From: Ruminococcus sp.
GTDB taxonomy: Bacteria; Bacillota; Clostridia; Oscillospirales; Ruminococcaceae
Reading direction: 5' to 3'
NCBI GenBank assembly: GCA_017513795.1
Contig: JAFXEJ010000093.1
Coordinates: forward strand, 1-51,519
Length of the DNA stretch: 51,519 bases
In this document: piece by piece, positions 455-49,673 of the stretch
How the letters are laid out: each line of letters opens with the position of its first letter
How positions within the stretch are numbered: the stretch's first letter is position 1
Program-made: the position numbers and the translations under genes
Notes under the pieces: model-generated
The model's database searches: none
What the model saw: the letters and a program-made list of their open reading frames with translations, nothing else
Told to the model about the DNA's origin: nothing

Positions 455-1111
455 TTGAGGAATATGGTATCAGCTTCTGTGCTCAGCGCAGATATGCTCA
501 GCCTTAAAGAGGAAATAAAACGAATGGAGAAAAGCGGCATAGAAATGCTGCATTTCGATGTGATGGACGGAGTCTTTGTAAATAATATTACTTACGGACT
601 CCCGATTCTTGAACAGGTAAGAAAAACAACGGATCTTATTCTCGATGTTCATCTTATGATAACCGATCCGCTCAGATATGTCAGACGATTTGCAGAATGC
701 GGCGCTGATTATATTTCCTTTCACATTGAAAGTGAAAGCGATACGGCAGAGACTATCAGGGCAATAAGAGAAGCCGGTGCGAAAACGGCTCTTGCTATAA
801 AGCCGGCAACTCCGGCAGAAACGGTTTTTGAATATCTTGATCAGCTTGATATGGTACTTGTAATGACTGTTGAACCTGGCTTCGGAGGACAGAGCTTTAT
901 CCCTGAAACAGTTGAGAAGGTTCGTATAATCCGTGAAAAAATCAGTTCAATGGGACTTGATATCAGAGTAGAAGTTGACGGCGGAATCAACGATATTACA
1001 TCTGAATGCGTTATTAATGCCGGAGCAGATACCCTTGTGTCGGGAAGCTACCTGTTCAAAGCGGAAAATATGGCTGAAGCAGCCGGAAAGATCAGGCGTG
1101 AAGAAATATGA
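455..1111 (+). CDS. rpe: Ribulose-phosphate 3-epimerase
   Basis: This TIM-barrel epimerase interconverts ribulose 5-phosphate and xylulose 5-phosphate in the pentose phosphate pathway. The 218-residue length is normal. Visible family motifs are ASVLSAD near the N terminus, MLHFDVMDGVFV (metal-site His and Asp), DVHLMI, SFHIES, VEPGFGGQSF and VDGGIN followed by GADTLVSGS, which binds the phosphate. The start is ambiguous. TTG at 455 has a GGAAGAAG-type site 8 nt upstream, while ATG at 464 gives MVSASVLSAD but its GAGG lies only 3 nt away. The last codons overlap the ATGA start of the RnfD-like gene, so the two are translationally coupled. Its placement at the head of an Rnf-like membrane trio is unusual. 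Confidence 0.92.
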   Translation: MRNMVSASVLSADMLSLKEEIKRMEKSGIEMLHFDVMDGVFVNNITYGLPILEQVRKTTDLILDVHLMITDPLRYVRRFAECGADYISFHIESESDTAETIRAIREAGAKTALAIKPATPAETVFEYLDQLDMVLVMTVEPGFGGQSFIPETVEKVRIIREKISSMGLDIRVEVDGGINDITSECVINAGADTLVSGSYLFKAENMAEAAGKIRREEI

Positions 1112-2121
1112 CAAAAACTGCCAGAAAAGAGCGTCATATATGGCTTGACACAATGATAACTCTTGTCGCTCTGGAGCTTATGTCCTATTTTTATTATGGT
1201 ATGCGTGCAGTTGTACTTGGCGGAGTATGCATTTCTGTTTCGTTAATTACAGAAATGATCTGCCTGCGTTTCATGAACAGAAGATTTACTGCTGACGATC
1301 TGACTTGTACTTCTGACGCACTTATAATCGCTCTTATGATGCCGGCTACAATGGACTATGGTATTGCCGGTATAGCATGCATTTTCGCAGTTGTTGCGGC
1401 GAAGAACGTTTTCGGCGGACGCAGAAATATCATCTTTTCTCCGGCAGCGGCAGCATATATTTTTATGCTTACTTCATGGGAGAAAAAGCTTCTGCTTTAT
1501 CCCCAGCCGCATGTACAGACTGGAATTTTTGATGAACCCGAAACACTTGTAAATTCAGCTTCCTATGTGTATAATACGACCGGAAAGATGGAATATACAG
1601 ATTTTGAGCTGCTTATGGGCAATTTCAGCGGACCAGCCGGTTCTGTAAGTATTCTTCTGCTCATTATTTCTGCTGCAATGCTTATATTCCGCAGAGATAT
1701 TTCAGCTGGAGCGTTCACAGGAACAATAATCGGAACAGCGTTTCTCAGCTATATTGTACCGGCTTCTCCAACGGCAGAGATAGGATATACTTTTGCAACA
1801 AATATGGTTCTTTTTGCTGCTGTATATATAATTTCAGACCGCAGAGTTGCTCCGAAAAGGGGATATTTTGCTTTCTTTTACGGATTATTTATAGCTGTGT
1901 TCTCGTATGTCATTGTAATCACAACAGGAAAAGAAAATGCAATAGTAATCGTGTCTGTTCTCTTTACACCGATAGCGCTTGGTATCAAGAATCTTGAAAA
2001 GAAAATTGAACTTGCCGATGCAGAAGTTTCTGAAGAAAAAACTGCCGCAGCCGAAGCTGACAGTATTGCCGCTGAAAATGATTTCTCAGAAGAAAAAACG
2101 GAGGATACAAGTAATGAATAA
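1108..2121 (+). CDS. RnfD/NqrB-like membrane protein lacking a clear flavinylation motif
   Basis: The 337-residue polytopic protein aligns by eye with RnfD, a membrane subunit of the Rnf ferredoxin:NAD+ oxidoreductase. Shared features are the first helix HIWLDTMITLVALELMSYFYYG, TSDALIIALMMPAT (compare the family SDGSAxVTGLLLALxLPP), and FAVVAAKNVFGG followed by IFSPAAAAYIF (family FAIVxxKqlFGG then NPFNPA). In canonical RnfD an SGAT motif carries FMN on a threonine. Here the corresponding stretch near residues 147-160 reads NSASYVYNTTGK, and no SGAT-type motif is visible. The C-terminal 40 residues are an acidic Ala/Glu-rich cytosolic tail. It overlaps rpe by 4 nt and the next gene by 8 nt. 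The family call is strong, but its redox function is doubtful. Confidence 0.8.
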   Translation: MTKTARKERHIWLDTMITLVALELMSYFYYGMRAVVLGGVCISVSLITEMICLRFMNRRFTADDLTCTSDALIIALMMPATMDYGIAGIACIFAVVAAKNVFGGRRNIIFSPAAAAYIFMLTSWEKKLLLYPQPHVQTGIFDEPETLVNSASYVYNTTGKMEYTDFELLMGNFSGPAGSVSILLLIISAAMLIFRRDISAGAFTGTIIGTAFLSYIVPASPTAEIGYTFATNMVLFAAVYIISDRRVAPKRGYFAFFYGLFIAVFSYVIVITTGKENAIVIVSVLFTPIALGIKNLEKKIELADAEVSEEKTAAAEADSIAAENDFSEEKTEDTSNE

Positions 2122-2749
2122 GCGAAGATCTTCAGTTTTTGATGGAATTCTGGGAGATAATATTGTATTATCTTCACTCATGGTAATATCACCCGTAATT
2201 ATCTGCGGAGATACGTTCAGAAATGCTGCTGCGCTGATTTATGCATTCAGTGCAATAACATTTCTTTCGGTGCTGATATCGTCATTTGTACCGAAAAAGC
2301 TTTCGTATACGGTGAAAGTCATTATGTATGCGGTGATTTCATCACTAGTTTATATTCCTGTAAAGTGGGCGGCTCAGGAATTCTTTCCCGGTGCTGTCGA
2401 AAGAATAGGTATCTATTTTCCTTTGCTTGCAGTAAATTCGCTTATTATCTTCCGTTCCGAGGCAGAGCTTTACAAGCTGCCGAAAGGTACAATGATATTA
2501 AAGCTGATATTCTACATTCTCGGATTTGATGCTGTTATGCTTATAACTGGTTTTGTCCGTGAGCTTTTTGCATACGGAACAATAAACGGCAGAATTGTTG
2601 ATATAACTACACCTGTCAGCGGACTTGCACAGCCATTCGGCGGATTCATATTCCTCGGATTATTCTGTGGTCTGTATCGCTGGATCCGTTCAGTTGTTAT
2701 AAGCAAAAAAGATGAGATAAGGAGTGATGCTGATGTTTCTGGTAAATGA
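2114..2749 (+). CDS. RnfE-like membrane protein with both cluster cysteines replaced by serine
   Basis: This is a 211-residue polytopic protein of the RnfE/NqrD family. Helix 1 reads GDNIVLSSLMVISPVI, where RnfE has ENPV..LGTCPTLAV. Later segments match family positions: YFPLLAVNSLIIFRSEAELY (family FIPLIVVNCIILGRAEAFA), VRELFAYGTING (family IREILGNGTIFG) and PFGGFIFLGLF (family PPGAFLxLG). The two cysteines that help bind the RnfA/E iron-sulfur cluster are Ser26 and Ser109 here. A nearby Cys31 is present. I start at ATG 2114, inside the end of rnfD, because an upstream extension would simply read through the other gene. The neighbouring RnfA-like gene overlaps its 3' end. Confidence 0.82.
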   Translation: MNKRRSSVFDGILGDNIVLSSLMVISPVIICGDTFRNAAALIYAFSAITFLSVLISSFVPKKLSYTVKVIMYAVISSLVYIPVKWAAQEFFPGAVERIGIYFPLLAVNSLIIFRSEAELYKLPKGTMILKLIFYILGFDAVMLITGFVRELFAYGTINGRIVDITTPVSGLAQPFGGFIFLGLFCGLYRWIRSVVISKKDEIRSDADVSGK

Positions 2750-3296
2750 TCTGATAACGCTCCTTGCTGCTAATCTTATACTCACTCAGGCACTTGGAAC
2801 AAGTACGATTTTCATTGCCGCCGGCAGCAGAAAAAATCTTGTAGGAACTGCATTTGTGATAACAGTTTTCACATTTATAGGTTCTGTATTCACATTCCTT
2901 GCAGACAAACTGCTTCCGGAAAAATATTCTGATTTCAGATTGCTGATATATGTTGTCAGCATTGGTATATTATATGTAATTCTTCTTTCTGCGCTTTATT
3001 TTATCAGCAGAAATAATTTTGAAAATTCAAGAAAATATATACATTTGTCGGTATTCAACTGTGCTGTTATGGGAACTCTCCTTACGATCAGCGGCAGAGC
3101 TTCTAAAAATTCGGCAATAACGGATTATATCTCGGCTGGGTTTGAAGCCGGAATAGGCTTTATCGTTGCTGCACTGATACTTACAGCCGCATACAGAAAA
3201 CTGAATTCATCCAAAGTACCGGCTGCATTCAGAGGATTTCCGGCGATGATTATTTATCTTGGAATCATATCAATGGCAGTTTATTCGCTTATATAA
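2733..3296 (+). CDS. RnfA-like membrane protein with one of two cluster cysteines lost
   Basis: This is a protein of about 187 residues of the RnfA/NqrE family, partner of RnfE in a pseudo-symmetric membrane pair. The first helix, ITLLAANLILTQALGTSTIF, corresponds to the family AVLVNNFVLxxFLGICPFLG, so the first cluster cysteine is Ser24. The second motif, FNCAVMGTLL (Cys110), is retained (family TNCAVLG). GFEAGIGFIVAALILTAAYR and VPAAFRGFPAMII match family AGIGFTIA...IRE and IPKSFEGFPI. ATG at 2733 lies 8 nt after AAGGAG (2719-2724) and is preferred over GTG 2724. The gene overlaps the RnfE-like gene by 17 nt. RnfB, RnfC and RnfG are not encoded nearby. Confidence 0.82.
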   Translation: MFLVNDLITLLAANLILTQALGTSTIFIAAGSRKNLVGTAFVITVFTFIGSVFTFLADKLLPEKYSDFRLLIYVVSIGILYVILLSALYFISRNNFENSRKYIHLSVFNCAVMGTLLTISGRASKNSAITDYISAGFEAGIGFIVAALILTAAYRKLNSSKVPAAFRGFPAMIIYLGIISMAVYSLI

Positions 3297-3330: not shown

Positions 3331-4539
3331 ATGAAATTTAAAAATAAAGGAAGGAAGATATATAAGACCAAAGAAAAAAATTATTACGGAAAAACACCTG
3401 CTGGTAAGGCTTTTTCCGTTGGTCTTACAATACTTCTTCTGGGAGGTCTGGGCTTTATCGGATACAGCGTTGCCGAGCCTCTCGTAAATTACAGTAAGAA
3501 AAAAGGGGATAAGGATGCTGTATCCCCGACATCAGCTGTTTCCACAACAGAGAACACTGAGCTTACAACAACGATTCCGGCTGAAACAGAGCCTGGTATC
3601 ATTCCTCCGCAGGGAGTTGAATTTGAAGCTTACAAAGGAGCAGCTTTAAAAGAAACCGATCTTTTGAATATTGAGGCTCTTGAACTGGCTATCGGCAGAC
3701 TTCCCACAGGACAGGGGATAGAGTATATAGCAGTTCCGCTTAAAATCAGCGGCGGTGCTGTATATTATTCAAGCGAGGTATTTTATGCTGGTCCGGCGAA
3801 GGCTTTTCCTGAGATGCTTACTCTCGAACAGATAATATCGGCTATCGAAAAAGCAGGATATAAACCAGCGGCTATCGTCAGCACATTCAATGATAATCTG
3901 CTGCCGGTAACTGACGGAAGCTGCGGCTACAGGACATATCCAACTGACGAACAGTGGATCGACAACGATGTTGCTGCCGGCGGAAAGCCGTGGGCAACTC
4001 CGTATTCTGACCTTGCTGTAAGCTATAACGCTGATGTTGTAAGCGAAATATCCTCAGCCGGCTTCAAAAAAATAGTATGCAGCGATCTTGTTTTTCCACG
4101 TTTCCGACAGAGTGATCTTGAGATCCTCAATCCAGAACTTTCAACATCTGCAAGATCTATGAAAATGACAGCAGCAGCAAATATGTTCAATGACAGAATC
4201 CTGAAAAACGGTTCATCAATGTTTATTGAAGTTTCAGCGGCAGATATCATTATGGGAAATGATGACATTCTTCAGCCTATGCTTCTTAATGTAAATACCG
4301 TTGTTCTTGATATAAATATTGACGAACTTAGCAGCGGTGTGTATACAGAAGATACAGTCTATGATTTTTCGGGAACTGTTCCTGAAAAAGCGGAAAAAGC
4401 TGTAAATATGGTCGAGGATGAACTGTCTGAATTCAATATAGTTATAAGGCTGTCAGGAAATTCCTGCTCAATGATGGACTTTGTGGAAGCACGGGACTCA
4501 CTTGTAAATAAAGGGTATGACTCCTTTATATTAGGATAA
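3331..4539 (+). CDS. Membrane-anchored putative glycosidase-like (DUF4015-type) extracellular protein
   Basis: The 402-residue protein has a basic cytosolic N terminus (residues 1-25), one membrane helix (about 27-52), a Thr/Ser/Glu-rich linker (about 60-95) and a large extracellular domain. The segment PYSDLAVSYNADVVSEISSAGFKKIV followed by LVFPRF resembles the NPYS...DYN...A...GFDEIQFDYVRFP region of DUF4015 putative glycoside hydrolases. However, the acidic residue of DYVRFP is displaced (SDLVFP). VYYSSE, an FNDNLLP strand-end motif and SFILG at the terminus also fit a TIM barrel. It follows the RnfA-like gene by 34 nt with its own AGGAGA site, so it belongs to that operon. The family link is tentative, and catalysis is doubtful. 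Confidence 0.5.
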   Translation: MKFKNKGRKIYKTKEKNYYGKTPAGKAFSVGLTILLLGGLGFIGYSVAEPLVNYSKKKGDKDAVSPTSAVSTTENTELTTTIPAETEPGIIPPQGVEFEAYKGAALKETDLLNIEALELAIGRLPTGQGIEYIAVPLKISGGAVYYSSEVFYAGPAKAFPEMLTLEQIISAIEKAGYKPAAIVSTFNDNLLPVTDGSCGYRTYPTDEQWIDNDVAAGGKPWATPYSDLAVSYNADVVSEISSAGFKKIVCSDLVFPRFRQSDLEILNPELSTSARSMKMTAAANMFNDRILKNGSSMFIEVSAADIIMGNDDILQPMLLNVNTVVLDINIDELSSGVYTEDTVYDFSGTVPEKAEKAVNMVEDELSEFNIVIRLSGNSCSMMDFVEARDSLVNKGYDSFILG

Positions 4540-6549: not shown

Positions 6550-7422
6550 ATGCAGCTATTGATAGTTACAGGAATGTCCGGCGCCGGCAAATCAAGCGTT
6601 ATGGACGTTATGGAGGATATCGGCTACTATTGCATTGATAATATTCCTCCGAAGCTTATTCCAAGATTTGTTGATCTTTGCCGACAGTCAGAAAGTGCAA
6701 TAACGAAGGTCGCTGTTGCAGTAGATATAAGGACCGGCGATATGTTTGCGGAGATTTTCCACTCATGGCAGAAATTGAAAACAGATTCCGATGTAGATGT
6801 AAAGGTTCTTTTCATTGATGCAAATCAGCGTGTTCTCATCAATCGTTACAAGGAAACACGCCGTAAGCATCCTTTGCAGGAAAAGTTCAACGGAAATATA
6901 AGCGTTGCTATTGAATACGAATATAATCAGCTTTCTCAGTTAAGAGAAATTGCCGACTTTTACATAGACACAACAGAATTTGCATCCGCCCAGCTTAAAG
7001 AGCATATCAAGTCAATGTTTCTTGAAAGAACCTCAGATTCAATGCTGATTCAGATCATGTCATTCGGTTTCAAATACGGAATTCCTTCAGATTGCGATCT
7101 TGTATTTGATGTAAGATGTCTGCCGAATCCCTATTATGTGGATGATCTTCGTCCACGCACAGGCTGTGAACAGTGTGTAAGAGATTATGTTATGGGATTT
7201 CCGCAGTCTCAGGAGCTTTTCTCCAAGCTTTCTGATCTTATCGACTATCTTATACCGCTTTATATTCATGAGGGAAAGAGTCAGCTTGTTATAGGTTTTG
7301 GATGCACCGGCGGAAAACACCGTTCAATAACATTTGCTGAACTTATGAGTAAACATCTGGGCGAAAAGGATTACAGAGTCCAGAAATATCACCGTGATAT
7401 TGCAAAAGACAGAAAATACTGA
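6550..7422 (+). CDS. rapZ: RapZ/YvcJ-family nucleotide-binding protein
   Basis: The 290-residue P-loop protein has Walker A GMSGAGKS at residues 8-15, then DIGYYCIDNIPPKLIP. The C-terminal domain shows SFGFKYGIPSDCDLVFDVRCLPNPYY and IGFGCTGGKHRSITFAE, which are diagnostic for the family. In E. coli RapZ is an RNA-binding adaptor controlling GlmS. Firmicute YvcJ hydrolyses nucleotides and affects competence and division-related processes. The usual clostridial order is rapZ-yvcK-whiA. Here yvcK is absent and a hairpin element takes its place. Confidence 0.93.
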   Translation: MQLLIVTGMSGAGKSSVMDVMEDIGYYCIDNIPPKLIPRFVDLCRQSESAITKVAVAVDIRTGDMFAEIFHSWQKLKTDSDVDVKVLFIDANQRVLINRYKETRRKHPLQEKFNGNISVAIEYEYNQLSQLREIADFYIDTTEFASAQLKEHIKSMFLERTSDSMLIQIMSFGFKYGIPSDCDLVFDVRCLPNPYYVDDLRPRTGCEQCVRDYVMGFPQSQELFSKLSDLIDYLIPLYIHEGKSQLVIGFGCTGGKHRSITFAELMSKHLGEKDYRVQKYHRDIAKDRKY

Positions 7423-7428
7423 GCTTTT

Positions 7429-7488
7429 AGGCAACACCGCATAAGATCCGCCTGACGGCTTTTCGCAGTGTTGCCTTAATATTTTTGA
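7429..7488 (+). repeat. Inverted-repeat element/terminator-like hairpin between rapZ and whiA
   Basis: AGGCAACAC (7429-7437) pairs with GTGTTGCCT (7468-7476), and GC/GC pairs extend the stem inward past a C-A mismatch. A T-rich tract follows at 7484-7488. It resembles small dispersed palindromic elements of gut Clostridia, but I find only one copy in this window. It may terminate or attenuate transcription between rapZ and whiA. Confidence 0.5.
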
Positions 7489-7503
7489 CAGGAGTGAAAA
7501 ACT

Positions 7504-8424
7504 ATATCTTTTTCAAATGATGTAAGAAAAGAAATCTGTTCCGGAATAAATGATAAGGATAAACGATTTGCCTGCCTTTATGGAATCCTCTTGTTCAGCA
7601 GGATCCTTACACCGGAAAGAATATGCTTTCAGACAGAAAGTAAAATATCATCGGAAATATTCAGCACACTTTTTGAAAACGTTTTTCATTGCAGTATTTC
7701 ATGCAGTATGAATGAACGAAAGGGAAAGGCAGTTCTCTTTTCCTACGATATCGAAGATGCCGAACTGATAGGAAAAATTTACCATAAATATAAAATAACA
7801 GGTCCGGAAAGGACGATAAATTCCGAGATTATTGCAACGAATAGTCTCGGAGTTTTTACGGCCGGAGTTTTCATAGCGTGCGGAAGCGTAAATGATCCTT
7901 CAAAAGAATATCATCTTGAATTTTCAGTAACTCAGGAAAAGCTTGCCGGAGAATTGTCACTTCTTCTCGGAGATATAGGAGTTACAGCAAGAACTGTTCA
8001 GCGCAGAGGACAGCATATTGTTTATATCAAGGAGAGTGAATCCATCGAAGATGTGCTGACTTTTATCGGTGCACAGCAGTGTACACTTGAACTGATGAAC
8101 GTAAAAATCTGGAAGGATGTAAGAAACAAGGCTAATCGTATTAGAAATTGTGATTCTGCGAATATTGATAAAGTAGTAAAGGCAGCCATGAAGCAAATCG
8201 AGGATATACACCTTATTCAGCAGAGTATGGGACTGGATTCGCTGTCACAGGAACTTCGTGAAATCGCAGAAATACGTCTTGAAAATAATGATATGAGCCT
8301 TCAGGAGATAGGTGAGAGTCTTTCTGTACCTATCAGCCGTTCAGGAGTAAATCACCGGTTTAAAAAACTGGCTGCAATGGCTGATGAAATACGCAGCAGA
8401 GGTAAAAACAATGGTGCAGAATAA
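7504..8424 (+). CDS. whiA: DNA-binding protein WhiA, probable ATA start codon
   Basis: WhiA has a degenerate LAGLIDADG homing-endonuclease N-terminal domain and a C-terminal helix-turn-helix. It acts in cell division and chromosome segregation in Bacillus and in sporulation in Streptomyces. The C-terminal match is clear: NRIRNCDSANIDKVV, LREIAEIRLENNDMSLQEIGE, and PISRSGVNHRFKKL. The conserved N terminus SFSNDVRKEI is encoded from 7507, and the codon where Met is expected is ATA at 7504-7506. AGGAG at 7490-7494 lies 9 nt upstream, and an in-frame TGA at 7495-7497 excludes an earlier start. The next usable start, TTG 7591, would delete 29 conserved residues. With ATA the product is 306 aa, close to the family norm. 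It overlaps dnaE by 14 nt. Confidence 0.85.
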   Translation: MSFSNDVRKEICSGINDKDKRFACLYGILLFSRILTPERICFQTESKISSEIFSTLFENVFHCSISCSMNERKGKAVLFSYDIEDAELIGKIYHKYKITGPERTINSEIIATNSLGVFTAGVFIACGSVNDPSKEYHLEFSVTQEKLAGELSLLLGDIGVTARTVQRRGQHIVYIKESESIEDVLTFIGAQQCTLELMNVKIWKDVRNKANRIRNCDSANIDKVVKAAMKQIEDIHLIQQSMGLDSLSQELREIAEIRLENNDMSLQEIGESLSVPISRSGVNHRFKKLAAMADEIRSRGKNNGAE

Positions 8425-11400
8425 CTTTGTGAATCTTCACGTCCACACTGAATACAGCCTTCTTGACGGAGCCTGCCGCATCAGGAATCTTATTAAACAT
8501 GTAAAGGAAATGGGACAGACTGCCGTTGCAATAACAGATCACGGCAACATGTACGGAGCTGTTGAATTCCGGAACGAAGCTGTAAAAGAGGGGATAAAGC
8601 CTATAATCGGCTGTGAGGTATATGTTGCTCCACGTTCAAGATTTGATAAGGAAGCCGGTATAGATCAGCATCCTTACCATCTTGTGCTTCTCTGCGAAAA
8701 CAACGAGGGCTACAGAAACCTTGTCAAGCTTGTATCTGCTGCCGGAATCGAAGGCTTCTACAACAGACCGAGAGTAGATAAAGAACTGCTTCGTAAGCAT
8801 CATAAGGGACTTATATGTCTTTCTGCCTGTCTTGCCGGAGAAATCCCGAGACTTCTTTCGGACGGAAATTATATCGGTGCAAAGGAAGCGGCTCTGACAT
8901 ATCTAGATATTTTTGGTGAGAATAATTTCTTTATTGAGATACAGAATCATGGTCTTGAAGATGAACTGAAAAATCTTCCTCTGCTTTATAAGCTTTCCGA
9001 CGAAACGGGAATTCCGCTTGTTGCCACAAATGACTGCCACTATGTCCGCAGAGAAGACAGCAGTATTCAGGAAATACTTGTATGTGTGCAGACAGGAAGA
9101 ATTCTTGGCGAACCGGGAGGACTCAGTTTTGATACAGATGAATTCTATCTCAAATCAGCGGAAGAAATGCGTTCTCTTTTCAAAGGTCATGAGGAAGCAG
9201 TTTCCATTACCGAAGAAATTGCAGAAAGATGCAATGTAGAATTTGAATTCGGAAATATAAAGCTCCCGAAATTCACTATAGAGGGAGTTTCTGATAATAA
9301 TGAATATTTCCGTAAGCTCTGTATGAACGGAATGTATGATCTGTATGGTCCGGATCCATCATCAGAAGTACAGGAACGAATGGAATACGAGATTTCTGTA
9401 ATAACCAAAATGGGATATACCGATTATTTTCTTATCGTGTGGGATTTCATCCGTTACGCAAGAACGAATAATATTCCTGTCGGTCCCGGACGAGGTTCAG
9501 GTGCCGGAAGTCTCTGCGCCTATTGTATAGGCATAACCGGTATAGATCCGATGAAATATAATTTGCTCTTTGAACGTTTTCTTAATCCGGAACGTGTAAG
9601 TATGCCGGATTTTGATATAGATTTCTGTATTGAAGGACGACAGAGAGTAAAGGATTATGTTGTTCAGAAGTACGGCAAAGAATATGTTTCCGAAATTATT
9701 GCATTCGATACATTTAAGGCAAGGGCGGCAGTCCGTGATGTCGGACGTGTACTTAATCTGCCATATCAGCTTTGTGATAAGGTTGCAAAGCTGATAGATC
9801 CGAAGTCGAAGCTGGAGGAAGCAATAAGCCAGTCTGAGGAGCTTTCCCAGCTGTATCGTACAGACAGGTCGGTGAAAAAGCTTCTTGATGTTGCCGGACA
9901 GCTTGAAGGTATGCCAAGACATACATCAACTCATGCGGCTGGAGTTGTAATTTCCGCTGTTCCTCTTGATGATCTTGTACCATTGCAGAAGAATGATGAT
10001 ACAGTTATCACTCAATACACGATGACTATTCTTGAATCATTAGGACTTCTCAAAATGGATTTTCTCGGACTGCGCAACCTTACGATAATCCGTGACTGTG
10101 TAAATGAGATACACAAGAGTAATCCGGAATTCGATATATCTGCAATTCCGCTTGACGATCAGGCAGTCTATAAAATGATGTCTGATGGTGATACATCTGG
10201 AATTTTTCAGTTTGAAAGTGCAGGTATGACACGGTGGCTTACCGAAATGAAACCGGAAAGACTTGAAGATCTTATTGTCATAATTTCGCTGTATCGTCCA
10301 GGACCGATGAAGTCAATTCCGGTTTATATCGAAAATAAGAAGAATCCTGATAAAGCTGTATATAAACACCCGATGCTGAAGGATATCCTTGAAGAAACTT
10401 ATGGCGTCATGGTATATCAGGAGCAGGTAATGGAAATATGCCGGAAGCTTGCCGGATATTCCTACGGTCATGCTGATATTGTACGCCGTGCTATGGCAAA
10501 AAAGAAGCAAGATGTTATGATAATGGAGCGTGAAAGCTTTATCAGAGGAGCGGCAGATAATGGTATATCCGAAAATACTGCCAACTCGATCTTCGATGAG
10601 ATGATAAGCTTTGCTTCGTATGCCTTCAATAAATCCCATGCTGCTGCCTATGCTTATCTGTCATATCAGACAGCATATCTCAAATGCCATTACAATGGAA
10701 TATATATGGCTGCTCTGATGTCGAGTGTTATGTCAGGAGCCGGAAAGCTTGCTGAATATATTTCTTCATGCCGCAGCTCAGGAATTAATATTCTCCCGCC
10801 GGATATCAACAGAAGTATAAAAGGATTCCGGTTTGAAAACGGAAAGATGTATTTCGGACTTCTTGCAATAAAGAATATCGGCAGCGGACTTGCAGAAAAA
10901 ATCATCGCCGAGAGAAAGCTTAATGGTAATTATCGTGGTTTACAGGATTTCTGTGAACGTGTCGGAGGACGTGAACTGAATAAAAAGGCTCTTGAAAATC
11001 TTATCAAAGCCGGAGCTTTTGATAACCTCGGGCTTAATCGTCGGCAGATGCTTGAATATTACGAAACAATACTCGATGATTGCAGCAGCAGTTCAAGAGG
11101 AATGATTGAAGGGCAGTTGAACTTTCTTGAAGACGTCGCTTCTGAGGATACAGGCTTCCGGATTCCATCTCTGCCGGAACACGAAACGAGAAAGCTTCTT
11201 TCAATGGAAAAAGAAGCTGCCGGAATGTATCTTTCAGGAAATCCTCTTGATGACTACAAATATATAGCCTCTCTGATGCACACAAGAAGCATAGGAGCGC
11301 TTACTGCAGAGGATGCGGCTGTCAGCGACGGTGAACAGGTAAAGCTTCTGTGTACGATCCAGAGCCTTAAAAAGCACGTCACAAAAAAGAACGATCAGAT

Positions 11401-46164: not shown

Positions 46165-47562
46165 ATGAAAAAAGTACAACTTACAGAAACCGTACTGCGT
46201 GACGCAAATCAGTCACTGATGGCAACACGACTTCCATATTCGGATTATGAGGATATTCTCGCCGATATGGACAAAGCGGGGTATTATTCAATCGAATGTT
46301 GGGGCGGAGCTACATTTGACTCCTGTCTCCGCTACCTCAACGAAGATCCGTGGGAGAGACTTCGCAATCTGAGAAAACTTCTTCCCAATACAAGACTTCA
46401 GATGCTTCTCAGAGGTCAGAATCTTCTTGGCTACAAGCACTATCACGATGACGTTGTAGAGAAGTTCATCGAGCTTTCTATCAAGAACGGTATTGACGTT
46501 ATCCGTATCTTTGATGCTCTCAACGATTTCAGAAACATCGAGACAGCTCTTAACGCTACAAAAAAATATGCAACAAAGAGAACTGTTGCTTCCGGCTGTA
46601 TTTCCTATACACAGAGCCCTGTACATACTGTGGACAAGTATATCGAAATGTGTAAGGATCTCAAGAAAATGGGATTCGATACAATCTGTCTCAAGGATAT
46701 GGCAGGAACTATGTCACCTTACGAAGCAGAGCACCTTATCAAGGGAATCAAGGATGCTATCGGCGATATGACTCTCGTTCTCCATACTCACTGTACAACA
46801 GGTATGGCTTATATGACAATCATGAAGGCTATTGAGTCCGGAATTGATGTTATCGACACTGCTTGTTCTTCATTCTCAGGCGGTACATCACAGCCTTCAA
46901 CTGAGACAATGTTCTACGCTCTCCAGCAGTACGGAATTGATACAGGACTTAACGAAGATATCATAAATAAGGTTAACGACTACTTCAAGCCTGTAAAGCA
47001 GAAGTATGTTGACAACGGCCAGCTCAACCCCAAGAGTCTCAATACAGATGCTCAGGCACTTGTTTATAAGGTTCCAGGCGGCATGCTTTCAAATATGATC
47101 GCTAACCTTACTGATATGCACGCAATGGACAAGTTTGATGAAGCTCTTGCTGAAATCCCGAAGGTTCGTGCTGATCTCGGATATCCTCCGCTTGTAACTC
47201 CTCTTTCACAGATGGTTGGAAATCAGGCTGTAACAAATGTTCTTATCGGCGAGCGTTACAAGAATATTTCCAAGGAAGTAAAGAACTACATCAAGGGTGA
47301 GTACGGTATTGCTCCTGCTCCTATTGATGCAGAGCTTTCCAAGAAGGTTCTCGGCGACGCAAAGCCTGTTGACTGCCGTGACGAGGACAAGAAGCGCACA
47401 GGCGAGGACTTCAAGGCTGCAAAGGAAGCTCTCGGAGATCTCTGCCGCTGTGAAGAAGATGTAATGAGCTACATCTGCTATCCCGATCAGACAATCAACT
47501 TCCTTAAAAACCGTAAGGCTCAGGAGGAAAATGAAGCAGTTTACACCATCGAGGAAATGTAA
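46165..47562 (+). CDS. oadA: Oxaloacetate decarboxylase alpha subunit (carboxyltransferase, no biotin domain)
   Basis: The 465-residue carboxyltransferase is of the OadA/PycB/5S type. Active-site residues are visible: RDANQ (Asp13), SIECWGGATFD, RGQNLLGYKHYHDD, the lysine of ICLKDMAG (Lys177, normally carbamylated and a metal ligand) and LHTHCT (His207, His209). It moves CO2 from oxaloacetate to biotin. OadA usually carries a C-terminal biotin domain (about 590 aa). Here that domain is a separate protein two genes downstream. A methylmalonyl-CoA decarboxylase would use a different (MmdA) alpha subunit, so oxaloacetate is favoured. GAGGAGG precedes the ATG. Confidence 0.92.
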   Translation: MKKVQLTETVLRDANQSLMATRLPYSDYEDILADMDKAGYYSIECWGGATFDSCLRYLNEDPWERLRNLRKLLPNTRLQMLLRGQNLLGYKHYHDDVVEKFIELSIKNGIDVIRIFDALNDFRNIETALNATKKYATKRTVASGCISYTQSPVHTVDKYIEMCKDLKKMGFDTICLKDMAGTMSPYEAEHLIKGIKDAIGDMTLVLHTHCTTGMAYMTIMKAIESGIDVIDTACSSFSGGTSQPSTETMFYALQQYGIDTGLNEDIINKVNDYFKPVKQKYVDNGQLNPKSLNTDAQALVYKVPGGMLSNMIANLTDMHAMDKFDEALAEIPKVRADLGYPPLVTPLSQMVGNQAVTNVLIGERYKNISKEVKNYIKGEYGIAPAPIDAELSKKVLGDAKPVDCRDEDKKRTGEDFKAAKEALGDLCRCEEDVMSYICYPDQTINFLKNRKAQEENEAVYTIEEM

Positions 47563-47574
47563 GGAGGCTGCTTT

Positions 47575-48042
47575 ATGGAATTAGAAAACACTACGCTTGA
47601 CGTCGAAATTATCGGCGGAGCTGATGATGTAACAGCAGTTCTTCTCAGCGAAGAAACACAGGAAACTACTGAAATGACTACAAAAGAGTCAAAAAACGAA
47701 GCTAAGGATATGAGTATTGCTGATGCCGGAATCACAGCTGTTTTCGGATATTCAGTAGTTTTCGCCGGACTTCTTATTCTTATGATAGTTCTTTACTGCA
47801 CAGGAGCTATCTTCAAGGCTAAGGACGCAAAAGCTCAGGCTGCCAAGGAAGCTGAAAACAAATCAGCTAAGAATACTCCTGCTCCAGCTGCTGAAAAGCC
47901 TCTTGCTCCCGGATCAGCCGGTCATGTAAAACTCTTTGACGTTCCCGACAAGGAAGCTGCAATGATCATGGCTATCGTTGCCGACAAAATGCAGAAGCCG
48001 CTTAATGAGCTTCACTTTATTTCAATTAAGGAGGTTAAATAA
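47575..48042 (+). CDS. oadG: OadG-like gamma subunit of the sodium-pump decarboxylase
   Basis: The 155-residue protein has one membrane helix (about 56-80: FGYSVVFAGLLILMIVLY), a Lys/Ala/Glu-rich stalk and an alanine/proline stretch leading to a small C-terminal domain (VKLFDVPDKEAAMIMAIVADKMQKPLNELHFISIKEV). OadG subunits hold the complex together and contact the alpha and biotin subunits. An unusual point is residues 11-26 (EIIGGADDVTAVLLSE), which resemble the OadB sodium-site motif. AAGGAGG precedes the ATG, and the biotin carrier follows after 2 nt. The family is divergent, so the assignment leans on context. Confidence 0.8.
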   Translation: MELENTTLDVEIIGGADDVTAVLLSEETQETTEMTTKESKNEAKDMSIADAGITAVFGYSVVFAGLLILMIVLYCTGAIFKAKDAKAQAAKEAENKSAKNTPAPAAEKPLAPGSAGHVKLFDVPDKEAAMIMAIVADKMQKPLNELHFISIKEVK

Positions 48043-48044
48043 CC

Positions 48045-48443
48045 ATGAAGTATAAAGTAACACTTAACGGTAAAACATATGAAGTTGAGGTTGAGCACGG
48101 TAAGGCAGTCCTCCTTGACGAATACGAGGCACTTGCACCTGCACCGGCTGCAGCCGCTCCAGCAGCTGCTCCTGTTGCTGCCGCACCAGCTGCTGCACCT
48201 GCACCGGCTGCTCCTGTTAATCTTGCAGCTGGCGAAACAGTTGCTGCTCCCATGCCCGGAAACATCCTCAGAGTCGAGGTTAATCAGGGTGATACAGTCA
48301 AGGCTGGTCAGCTCCTCGTTGTTCTTGAGGCTATGAAAATGGAAAATGAAATTGTTGCGCCCAAGGACGGCACAGTTGCACAGGTTGTAACAAGCAAGGG
48401 TGCGGTTGTTGATACTGGCTCTCCGCTCGTTATTATCGCATAA
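48045..48443 (+). CDS. Biotin carboxyl carrier subunit of the decarboxylase
   Basis: The 132-residue protein has a short N-terminal strand domain (1-30), a flexible alanine/proline linker (about 31-58) and a C-terminal biotinyl domain (about 62-132). The biotin attachment motif EAMKMENEIV places the biotinylated lysine at Lys98. APMPGNILRVEVNQGDTVKAGQLLVVL and TVAQVVTSKGAVVDTGSPLVII complete the fold. It shuttles carboxyl groups from OadA to OadB. It is equivalent to MmdC/GcdC of related decarboxylases. Confidence 0.93.
   Translation: MKYKVTLNGKTYEVEVEHGKAVLLDEYEALAPAPAAAAPAAAPVAAAPAAAPAPAAPVNLAAGETVAAPMPGNILRVEVNQGDTVKAGQLLVVLEAMKMENEIVAPKDGTVAQVVTSKGAVVDTGSPLVIIA
48135..48218 (+). repeat. 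Alanine/proline linker-coding repeat
   Basis: Low-complexity GCN/CCN codons encode the flexible linker. A 17-bp unit (gcacctgcaccggctgc) occurs exactly twice, at 48135-48151 and 48195-48211, so the linker could change length by slippage. Confidence 0.75.
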
Positions 48444-48455
48444 GGAGGGCAATAT

Positions 48456-49673
48456 ATGGACATTCTCGAAACCCTCAAAACCTTGTGGAATGATTCAGGC
48501 TTCCACAGTTTTCTCGTTGACGGGGGATGGAAGAATCTCATCATGATTGGTATCGCATGTGTTCTTCTTTACCTCGGAATCAAGAAGAAGTTTGAACCGC
48601 TTCTTCTTGTAGGAATCGCTTTCGGCTGTCTGCTTGTAAACCTTTCCTACTTCTCACCAGAGTCAGCCGATGCTCTTTATCATCTTGATCTCTGGGATAA
48701 CTTCCTTGATCATGATCACCCGGATTATCACAGTTACGGTGCGATCATGAGAGACGGCGGACTTCTTGATATACTCTACATAGGCGTCAAGGCAGGTATT
48801 TATCCATCACTCATCTTCATGGGTGTAGGCGCTATGACAGACTTTGGTCCGCTTATTTCCAACCCCAAGAGCCTCCTCCTCGGAGCTGCTGCACAGATGG
48901 GCGTATTCCTTGCGTTCTTCGGTGCTGTATGTCTCGGATTTGACGGAAATGCTGCTGCTTCTATCGGTATCATCGGTGGTGCGGACGGTCCTACAGCGAT
49001 CTTCCTTACATCAAAGCTCAAGCCTGAGCTTCTCGGACCTATCGCAATTGCAGCATATTCATACATGGCACTTATCCCTATGATTCAGCCTCCGATTATG
49101 AGACTTCTCACAACAGAGAAAGAGCGTAAGGTTAAGATGGAGCAGACTCGTGTGGTATCAAAAACAGAAAAGATCCTGTTCCCTATCATCGTTGCACTTT
49201 TTGTAATTCTTCTTCTTCCTTCAACAGCTCCTCTTGTAGGATGTCTTATGCTTGGAAATCTCTGGAGAGAATGCGGTGTTACAGAAAGACTTTCAGACAC
49301 AGTACAGAATGCTCTTATGAATATCGTTACTGTTTTCCTCGGAATTTCTGTTGGTGCAACAACAGTTGCTTCACGTTTCCTTTCTCTTGAAACAATCAAG
49401 ATTATTGTTCTTGGACTTACAGCATTCTGTTTCTCAACAGTCGGTGGTCTTCTTGTTGGTAAGCTTATGTATAAGCTTACAGGTGGAAAGGTAAATCCTC
49501 TTATCGGTTCTGCCGGAGTTTCAGCTGTTCCTATGGCTGCCCGTGTATCGCAGATGGAAGGTCAGAAGGCTAATCCTTCAAACTTCCTCCTCATGCACGC
49601 AATGGGACCGAACGTTGCCGGAGTTATCGGTTCAGCAATTGCTGCCGGATTCCTCCTTGCAGTATTCAAGTAA
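48456..49673 (+). CDS. oadB: Sodium-ion-translocating decarboxylase beta subunit
   Basis: This 405-residue polytopic protein performs decarboxylation of carboxybiotin coupled to Na+ export. Visible family motifs are GVKAGIYPSLIFMGVGAMTDFGPLISNP (about 110-137), GIIGGADGPTAIFLTSKL (171-188, holding the conserved Asp believed to bind sodium), AAYSYMALIPMIQPPIMR, PLVGCLMLGNL, and near the C terminus GKVNPLIGSAGVSAVPMAARVSQ plus HAMGPNVAGVIGSAIAAG. It converts decarboxylation energy into a sodium gradient. AAGGAGG precedes the ATG, and a strong terminator follows the gene. Confidence 0.95.
   Translation: MDILETLKTLWNDSGFHSFLVDGGWKNLIMIGIACVLLYLGIKKKFEPLLLVGIAFGCLLVNLSYFSPESADALYHLDLWDNFLDHDHPDYHSYGAIMRDGGLLDILYIGVKAGIYPSLIFMGVGAMTDFGPLISNPKSLLLGAAAQMGVFLAFFGAVCLGFDGNAAASIGIIGGADGPTAIFLTSKLKPELLGPIAIAAYSYMALIPMIQPPIMRLLTTEKERKVKMEQTRVVSKTEKILFPIIVALFVILLLPSTAPLVGCLMLGNLWRECGVTERLSDTVQNALMNIVTVFLGISVGATTVASRFLSLETIKIIVLGLTAFCFSTVGGLLVGKLMYKLTGGKVNPLIGSAGVSAVPMAARVSQMEGQKANPSNFLLMHAMGPNVAGVIGSAIAAGFLLAVFK

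Follow-up and report, generated by a model that had tools for sequence, protein, structure and literature searches.

An Rnf-type D-E-A membrane core in Ruminococcus that appears to have lost its cofactor sites and is retained by selection

In the Rnf respiratory complex (RnfABCDGE), a primary redox ion pump, RnfA and RnfE are arranged as an inverted pair, the helices of which are broken and which is open to one side of the membrane and then the other (PMC12174285, PMC11889175; papers cited by PubMed Central [PMC] number, here and below, are cited for what their available excerpts state). The ligands of the A/E cluster in Clostridium tetanomorphum are Cys25 and Cys113 of RnfA and Cys26 and Cys109 of RnfE (PMC9588780), and the riboflavin residues of Acetobacterium woodii RnfD are numbered N123 (Asn) and D249 (Asp) (PMC11889175). 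Models differ as to whether Na+ crosses the complex through RnfD or through RnfA/E (PMC12174285, PMC9588780, PMC11889175). Na+-NQR has been proposed to originate from a duplicated rnf operon, with loss of rnfB and of the cofactor sites of RnfC (PMC4014512). Here, we describe three adjacent genes for RnfD-, RnfE-, and RnfA-like proteins (termed the D-E-A trio) in a 51,519-nucleotide (nt) stretch of Ruminococcus sp. DNA (assembly GCA_017513795.1, contig JAFXEJ010000093.1, positions 1 to 51,519; termed the window):

1108..2121, + strand: RnfD/NqrB-like protein, 337 amino acids (aa), PF03116 E = 5.9e-38
2114..2749, + strand: RnfE/NqrD-like protein, 211 aa, ATG start, PF02508 E = 1.6e-22
2733..3296, + strand: RnfA/NqrE-like protein, 187 aa, ATG start, PF02508 E = 4.7e-19

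As judged from sequence comparison, the trio very probably represents a paralogous Rnf branch at the rpe locus, encoding a D-E-A membrane complex without recognizable cofactor sites that is kept under purifying selection.

An earlier note on this DNA had reported a tightly coupled trio at 1108-3296 with open frames and overlaps of 8 nt between D and E (2114-2121) and 17 nt between E and A (2733-2749), and the gene coordinates and Pfam matches confirm this description, all three reading frames being intact. The proteins pass the curated Pfam cut-offs (PF03116 once, PF02508 twice), and their best PDB sequence matches are RnfD, RnfE, and RnfA chains, those of the D-like protein being RnfD of 7zc6, 9eri, and 8ahx. 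They miss the NCBIfam cut-offs for rnfD, rnfE, and rnfA, with 78.7, 53.8, and 43.2 bits versus 207.05, 213.4, and 229.3, respectively. As the note had stated, rnfB, rnfC, and rnfG were not found beside the trio, where the neighbors are rpe and a DUF4015 gene. An NqrF-type module for NADH and flavin adenine dinucleotide (FAD) is likewise absent there, with rpe upstream and DUF4015-hprK downstream. The D-like protein contains PF03116 alone, without a PF00175 fusion, and we found no neighbor binding flavin mononucleotide (FMN) among the window proteins scanned.

We then analyzed the cofactor sites, reading the ligand positions from an alignment with the canonical copies of the same genome and from a profile alignment to solved RnfA, RnfE, and NqrD chains. 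The sites, all on the + strand, are as follows:

2189..2191: E-Ser26, replacing the first cluster Cys of E (codon TCA)
2438..2440: E-Ser109, replacing the second cluster Cys of E (codon TCG)
2802..2804: A-Ser24, replacing the first cluster Cys of A (codon AGT)
3060..3062: A-Cys110, the sole remaining ligand cysteine (codon TGT)
1555..1557: D-Ser150, at the position of the FMN-accepting threonine
1438..1440: D-Ser111, at the position of the riboflavin Asn
1837..1839: D-Asp244, the retained Asp of the riboflavin site

Both alignments place the four E and A residues at ligand positions, in agreement with the note, whose account was incomplete in that it left out the missing FMN threonine of D and the rpe and DUF4015 neighbors. 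Relatives were collected by scanning GTDB genomes with patterns of the A protein; 107 were confirmed and 80 kept (termed named loci), a set from which the window's own genome or very close ones may be missing and that overlaps the same-genus set described below. Seventy-four of them are titled Ruminococcus, including the R. flavefaciens isolates FD-1 and 007c. They share the serine substitutions, as they do the gene order: E site 26 is Ser in 79 of 80 (the other being a gap), E site 109 is Ser in all 80, and the two A sites are Ser and Cys in all 80. The FMN-threonine position is Ser in 78 of 79 D sequences of the named loci, the remaining one being a gap, and the riboflavin Asn is changed to Ser in 23/23 same-genus loci, the window's included. 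We looked for substitute cysteines at or next to the four sites in the alignments and found no consistent one there.

The same positions in 13 further D-E-A loci (12 from other genera and one divergent second copy) have a different composition. At E position 26, 12 loci have Ala and one has Gly; at E position 109, Ser occurs in 7, Pro in 4, Ala in 1, and Leu in 1; the first A site has Ser in 11, Asn in 1, and Asp in 1; and 7/13 retain the last Cys. The Cys-to-Ser loss is thus mainly a Ruminococcus trait, relatives having Ala, Pro, or Gly, and the conserved feature appears to be the loss of the cluster, not serine itself. Serine codons in the named loci are TCN at the E sites and AGY at the A site; TCY and AGY codons are each one step away from a Cys codon. 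The first reading of the trio is therefore supported in part: a retained, non-redox core stands, with ligands replaced in relatives, full-length E in 78/80 named loci, and ratios of nonsynonymous to synonymous substitution rates (dN/dS) of 0.07 to 0.20, whereas the serine change as a signal does not, other genera showing Ala, Gly, Pro, and Leu at the E sites. These positions also bear on the idea that the trio is still redox active, other ligands (Ser, His, or Cys) holding a metal or a cluster at the old site. A-Cys110 and the conserved His104 lie within the same segment, and Ser is able in principle to bind metal, but Ala occupies E position 26 in 12/13 of the other D-E-A loci, the last Cys is absent in 6/13, and no gene for an electron donor or acceptor subunit lies beside the trio. 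We give this idea very little credence, and the loss of redox function appears well supported.

The window's genome also contains, on contig C66, a complete rnfCDGEAB operon in which none of the four cysteines is lost and both the FMN threonine and the NADH/FMN loop are present, so that a full rnf operon exists alongside the trio. This operon has the sole RnfC_N match of the genome, which was not searched with the RnfB or RnfG families. Because the same genome holds this ordinary, complete Rnf, the trio is a second, divergent set, and its E protein is only ~25% identical to the canonical one. We found no rnfB, rnfC, or rnfG elsewhere that clearly pairs with the trio: the C66 operon has its own D, E, and A, and in another genome, G002, the trio occurs without RnfC. 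A role of the trio as the missing subunits of the canonical operon was rejected as a necessity, as the C66 operon is already complete.

We then looked into the wider distribution of such loci in 295 genomes from the window's order, plus fetched neighborhoods; loci at this level were chosen as best matches, not at random. D-E-A-DUF4015, in more divergent form, was also found in other genera of the family, and a version bearing RnfC, typically rpe-C-D-E-A-DUF4015, was found in the window's family and five others. We tabulated 44 cofactor-poor loci, namely, 36 D-E-A and 8 RnfC-bearing loci. Cysteines were counted in 43 of them, leaving out L075, an RnfC-bearing locus in which A is missing because the contig ends. 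L059 was counted in neither class, and L069 stands among the 17 complete operons and outside the canonical column of our site table. The 17 loci with rnfG and rnfB (rnfG scores weakly in complete operons, at 23 to 67 bits) have all four cysteines in 16 cases and the FMN threonine in 17. The 43 cofactor-poor loci keep one cysteine (33 cases) or none (10 cases), never more than one; the FMN threonine is lost in 38 of them, with Thr at that column in 5, and RnfB and RnfG were found in none of those tabulated. D adjoins E in the RnfC-bearing loci, and A adjoins DUF4015 where the latter follows, so RnfG and RnfB are gone from their usual places. Their RnfC has the NADH/FMN loop in 0/8 cases versus 17/17 in complete operons and both 4Fe-4S motifs in 8/8, and their D keeps the riboflavin Asn in 8/8 and has Thr at the FMN site in 1/8. 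These eight loci (L058, L061, L062, L075, L119, L122, L125, and L126), with two 4Fe-4S motifs in RnfC, no NADH/FMN loop, and the riboflavin Asn in D, could possibly carry a riboflavin-to-4Fe-4S remnant.

A tree was built from the joined D, E, and A columns (720 columns; 41 rows, taken from the 61 loci in which all three genes are present) and rooted on the complete operons. All cofactor-poor loci of the tree fell into one clade (24/41 rows, support 100/98), the early branches of which include RnfC-bearing loci. With RnfC still encoded on these early branches, the losses that came first were very probably those of RnfB, RnfG, the A/E [2Fe-2S] ligands, the NADH/FMN loop of RnfC, and, nearly always, the covalent-FMN threonine of D; RnfC itself was lost later, on the lines toward the trio.

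Several individual loci deserve mention. L069, in genome G053, is a complete second rnfCDGEAB with two of the four A/E cysteines lost; it is sister to the cofactor-poor clade (93/97) and perhaps represents an early stage of cofactor loss. L068 comes from a genome of another family, in which a complete rnfCDGEAB-DUF4015 lies close to rpe and is separated from it by a single unassigned frame; this is plausibly the ancestral layout. L059, in G036, has D, E, and A with all cysteines and a truncated RnfG, no RnfB being found on the contig; the genome has another E match, and the fragment is probably the product of recent decay. RnfE-like proteins with long low-complexity extensions occur in L061 (N-terminal, 7857-9374) and L068 (C-terminal, 6875-8335). 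In a class-wide scan of 391 genomes, the clade was not separable by score, and the 24 top-ranked loci fetched from outside the order (L225 to L248) were all of the canonical type, with Cys motifs in E and A.

Apart from the window's own genome, 35 same-genus genomes were searched with the E protein, and the trio was detected in 25 of them; all 22 of those 25 genomes with a wider neighborhood fetched have the order rpe-D-E-A-DUF4015-hprK. The upstream member of this series in the window overlaps the D gene by 4 nt (1108-1111):

455..1111, + strand: rpe, ribulose-phosphate 3-epimerase, the usual upstream neighbor (TIGR01163, 263.3 bits versus a cut-off of 212.6)

The longer series rpe-D-E-A-DUF4015-hprK-murB-rapZ-whiA-dnaE is found in 64/80 named loci. 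Among the other 16, 14 have no gap between the first and last series gene found, and the remaining two have a split E (L169) or a split rapZ (L206). An rpe gene is present in 77/80 named loci and in 43/44 of the tabulated cofactor-poor loci, L061 having prmA there instead. An assembly or reading-frame artefact is ruled out, as the same genes recur in 25/35 same-genus genomes and 80 named loci. Genome G019 carries a second, divergent D-E-A-DUF4015 set on contig C147 (L070) in addition to an ordinary trio on C115, which may have arisen by duplication or transfer or may reflect a binning error. Among 20 proteins around ten loci (L214, without D-E-A, included), inspected for neighbors that could point to a substrate, the only family shared by different loci was a histidine kinase upstream of rpe in L117 and L120, from one genus. 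Further along the window, genes for a Na+-transporting decarboxylase (46165-49673, + strand) encode an OadA-like alpha subunit, a gamma subunit, a biotin carrier, and a beta subunit (PF03977, 535 bits); with these on the same contig, Na+ use in the bioenergetics of this organism is plausible.

We estimated selection by the Nei-Gojobori method, comparing the window with five relatives; the ratios are approximate, as dS is above 1 in many cases. dN/dS was 0.070 to 0.134 for E, 0.093 to 0.153 for A, and 0.082 to 0.201 for D (five pairs); 0.064 to 0.126 for DUF4015 (four pairs, the fifth being undefined); 0.083 to 0.133 for rpe (three pairs, with one undefined and one missing); and 0.010 to 0.020 for hprK. 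The trio is thus under purifying selection; hprK is constrained more strongly, and rpe to a degree similar to that of E and A. E is full length and undivided in 78/80 named loci and A is full length in 80/80; E is split in L169 (2503-3151) and lacks its first part in L187 (6508-7017), the other trio genes being full length in both. These data bear on the view that the trio is a slowly decaying relic carried inside an essential operon. The two damaged E genes and the absence of the trio from genomes G025 and G026 would fit decay, but the low dN/dS (0.07 to 0.20, with E and A similar to rpe), the intact E and A genes, and the membership in an old clade spanning several families make a relic very unlikely.

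The genomes without the trio reveal its modularity. In G025 (98% complete) and G026 (90%), rpe is directly followed by DUF4015, with gaps of 71 and 11 nt, and neither D-E-A nor a PF02508 match of any kind was found. G002 (99% complete, 5% contamination) carries the trio but lacks RnfC and any further PF02508 gene, and G009 (99% complete) has canonical Rnf and neither the trio nor DUF4015. In the other seven same-genus genomes lacking the trio, the assembly is incomplete or contaminated or has a break at the locus. As a quick gene tree joined G002 and G026 as sisters, with G025 outside, two losses of the trio are the simplest explanation in this group. The trio thus acts as a unit that can be lost and has no strict need for canonical Rnf. 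We considered that the cofactor-less D, E, and A may join, or compete for, canonical Rnf subunits and so tune assembly or activity. In line with such an accessory or regulatory role, 21 of the 25 trio-bearing same-genus genomes show a further, weaker E match, taken as canonical (score-confirmed in the three checked), and the trio losses fall in the G002/G025/G026 group, in which no canonical Rnf was found. G002, with its trio alone, and G009, with canonical Rnf alone, do not fit, nor does the low identity between the two E proteins of the window's genome, and we consider the role unlikely.

The gene following the trio merits separate analysis:

3331..4539, + strand: DUF4015 protein (termed H), the usual downstream neighbor (PF13200, 27.8 bits, a narrow pass of the 27.0 cut-off)

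H is the sole DUF4015 match in the window's genome and has a basic N-terminal tail, one predicted transmembrane helix, and a larger, glycosyl-hydrolase-like domain. The only strong match of the DUF4015 family alignment among solved chains is 4s1a (E = 5.6e-25). Two Asp residues present in 4s1a, that of the DIK motif and that of the DYIRFP motif, which are presumably catalytic, are changed in H; the former is kept in 1/36 and the latter in 0/36 D-E-A loci, versus 4/6 and 4/6 beside complete rnf operons (one of them a gap). Mean column identity is 0.88 in the tail (first 25 residues, 48 rows), 0.80 in the helix, and 0.59 in the domain. The tail (window 3331-3405) is nearly invariant in Ruminococcus, including two genomes without D-E-A. 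DUF4015 follows A in 36/36 cofactor-poor D-E-A loci and in 6/8 RnfC-bearing loci, the contig of L075 ending first and L062 being without DUF4015. It also comes after rnfB, at the 3' end, in 6/17 complete operons (L060, L068, L071, L076, which is cut by the contig end, L121, and L123). The one DUF4015 paper found in the PMC literature searched deals with another context and not with this association of Rnf and a glycosyl-hydrolase-like membrane protein.

This linkage raises the alternative that D-E-A anchors the DUF4015 surface protein in the membrane or acts in its sorting as a platform, the protein taking the former place of RnfG. The position after A, the topology shared with RnfG (a single N-terminal helix and a larger domain), and the tail and helix as the best conserved parts of the protein would all agree with a scaffold. 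Yet, DUF4015 with the same tail persists in two genomes devoid of PF02508 genes, G025 and G026, and DUF4015 also follows the six complete operons that retain RnfG. Because DUF4015 stays where D-E-A is gone, its presence is independent of the trio and the two are not obligate partners; a scaffold seems rather improbable.

Since nearly all electron-handling parts are lost, yet selection keeps the trio, it probably has a different membrane job. We tentatively propose, with slightly less than even confidence, that the trio functions as a secondary alternating-access carrier. The inverted A/E pair of half-helix subunits would persist and, with redox control gone, would transport Na+, H+, or a solute whose movement is coupled to one of these ions. 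The Lys68-Glu116 pair of E may act as the cytosolic gate, and the His104/Ser106/Cys110 segment of A may line the former cluster site. The full version of this proposal, in which a primary redox ion pump became a redox-free carrier, with A/E alone moving the ion or ion-coupled solute and a new His near the former cluster site, is possible but doubtful. The residues concerned, all on the + strand, are as follows:

2315..2317: E-Lys68, corresponding to R67 of A. woodii RnfE (Lys/Arg in 80/80 named loci)
2459..2461: E-Glu116, corresponding to E115 of A. woodii RnfE (Glu in 76/80 named loci)
3042..3044: A-His104, at the RnfA P107 position (His in 80/80 named loci)

In A. woodii, the substitutions R67A, E115K, L103G, and V106G abolished autotrophic growth (PMC11889175). 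L103, V106, and N107 are kept in 80/80 named loci, and in the 13 further D-E-A loci the R67 position is kept in 13/13 and E115 in 9/13. RnfA position 107 is His in 10/13 of these loci, 0/7 RnfC-bearing loci, and 0/16 canonical loci (Pro in 16/16). Loop Lys plus Arg residues number 15 inside versus 3 outside for E and 9 versus 5 for A, with loop borders set by us, and the charges of the two proteins still fit opposite (inverted) topologies.

A number of observations weigh against this proposal or the history behind it. On the proposed Na+ path, RnfA E88 is kept in 0/80 named loci and T110 is Ala or Val in 80/80; in A. woodii, T110G abolished growth and E115A grew like the wild type (PMC11889175). 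V106 is kept in just 5/13 D-E-A loci outside the named set, and the RnfC-bearing relatives keep R67 in 5/8 and E115 in 3/8. Long branches (L070 and L062) and skewed composition in seven rows blur parts of the tree. The trio was cleanly lost in G025 and G026, a lineage without canonical Rnf, so a role tied to Rnf also fits, and the DUF4015 gene remains where D-E-A is gone.

The carrier proposal aside, the trio shows a respiratory complex dismantled stepwise, with its membrane core retained by selection. A natural D-E-A complex without a recognizable cofactor site would constitute a separation-of-function variant for the question of the Na+ route. Annotation by Pfam only would call the trio Rnf; G002, for instance, would count as Rnf positive though only the cofactor-less trio was found there. 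We found no description of such a cofactor-less Rnf clade in the PMC literature searched, a body that leaves most subscription papers outside its scope and was covered in excerpts.

In comparison with RnfABCDGE, the D, E, and A proteins are homologous and the trio order is that of the rnfCDGEAB core minus G, whereas B, C, and G are missing beside the trio and three of the four A/E cysteines, the FMN threonine, and the riboflavin Asn are changed. H barely qualifies for the DUF4015 family (PF13200, 4s1a), being just above the Pfam cut-off with the DIK and DYIRFP Asp residues changed. The NQR/RNF-like flavinylation systems (Meheust 2021; 2024 preprint) are also partial and have an RnfD-like protein without the FMN threonine; unlike the trio, they are, in the published excerpts, redox systems composed of an RnfD-NqrF fusion and an FMN-binding protein (PMC8238504, PMC10979944). 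The trio has neither of these domains and includes E and A. NqrB, NqrD, and NqrE of Na+-NQR are homologous to the trio, and a duplication of rnf with loss of rnfB has been proposed there as well (PMC4014512), but NQR retains the intramembrane cluster and covalent flavins (PMC12174285) and gained NqrF, whereas we found no new redox module beside the trio. The cofactor-poor clade is a different outcome of an NQR-like start, one that ended without recognizable redox parts.

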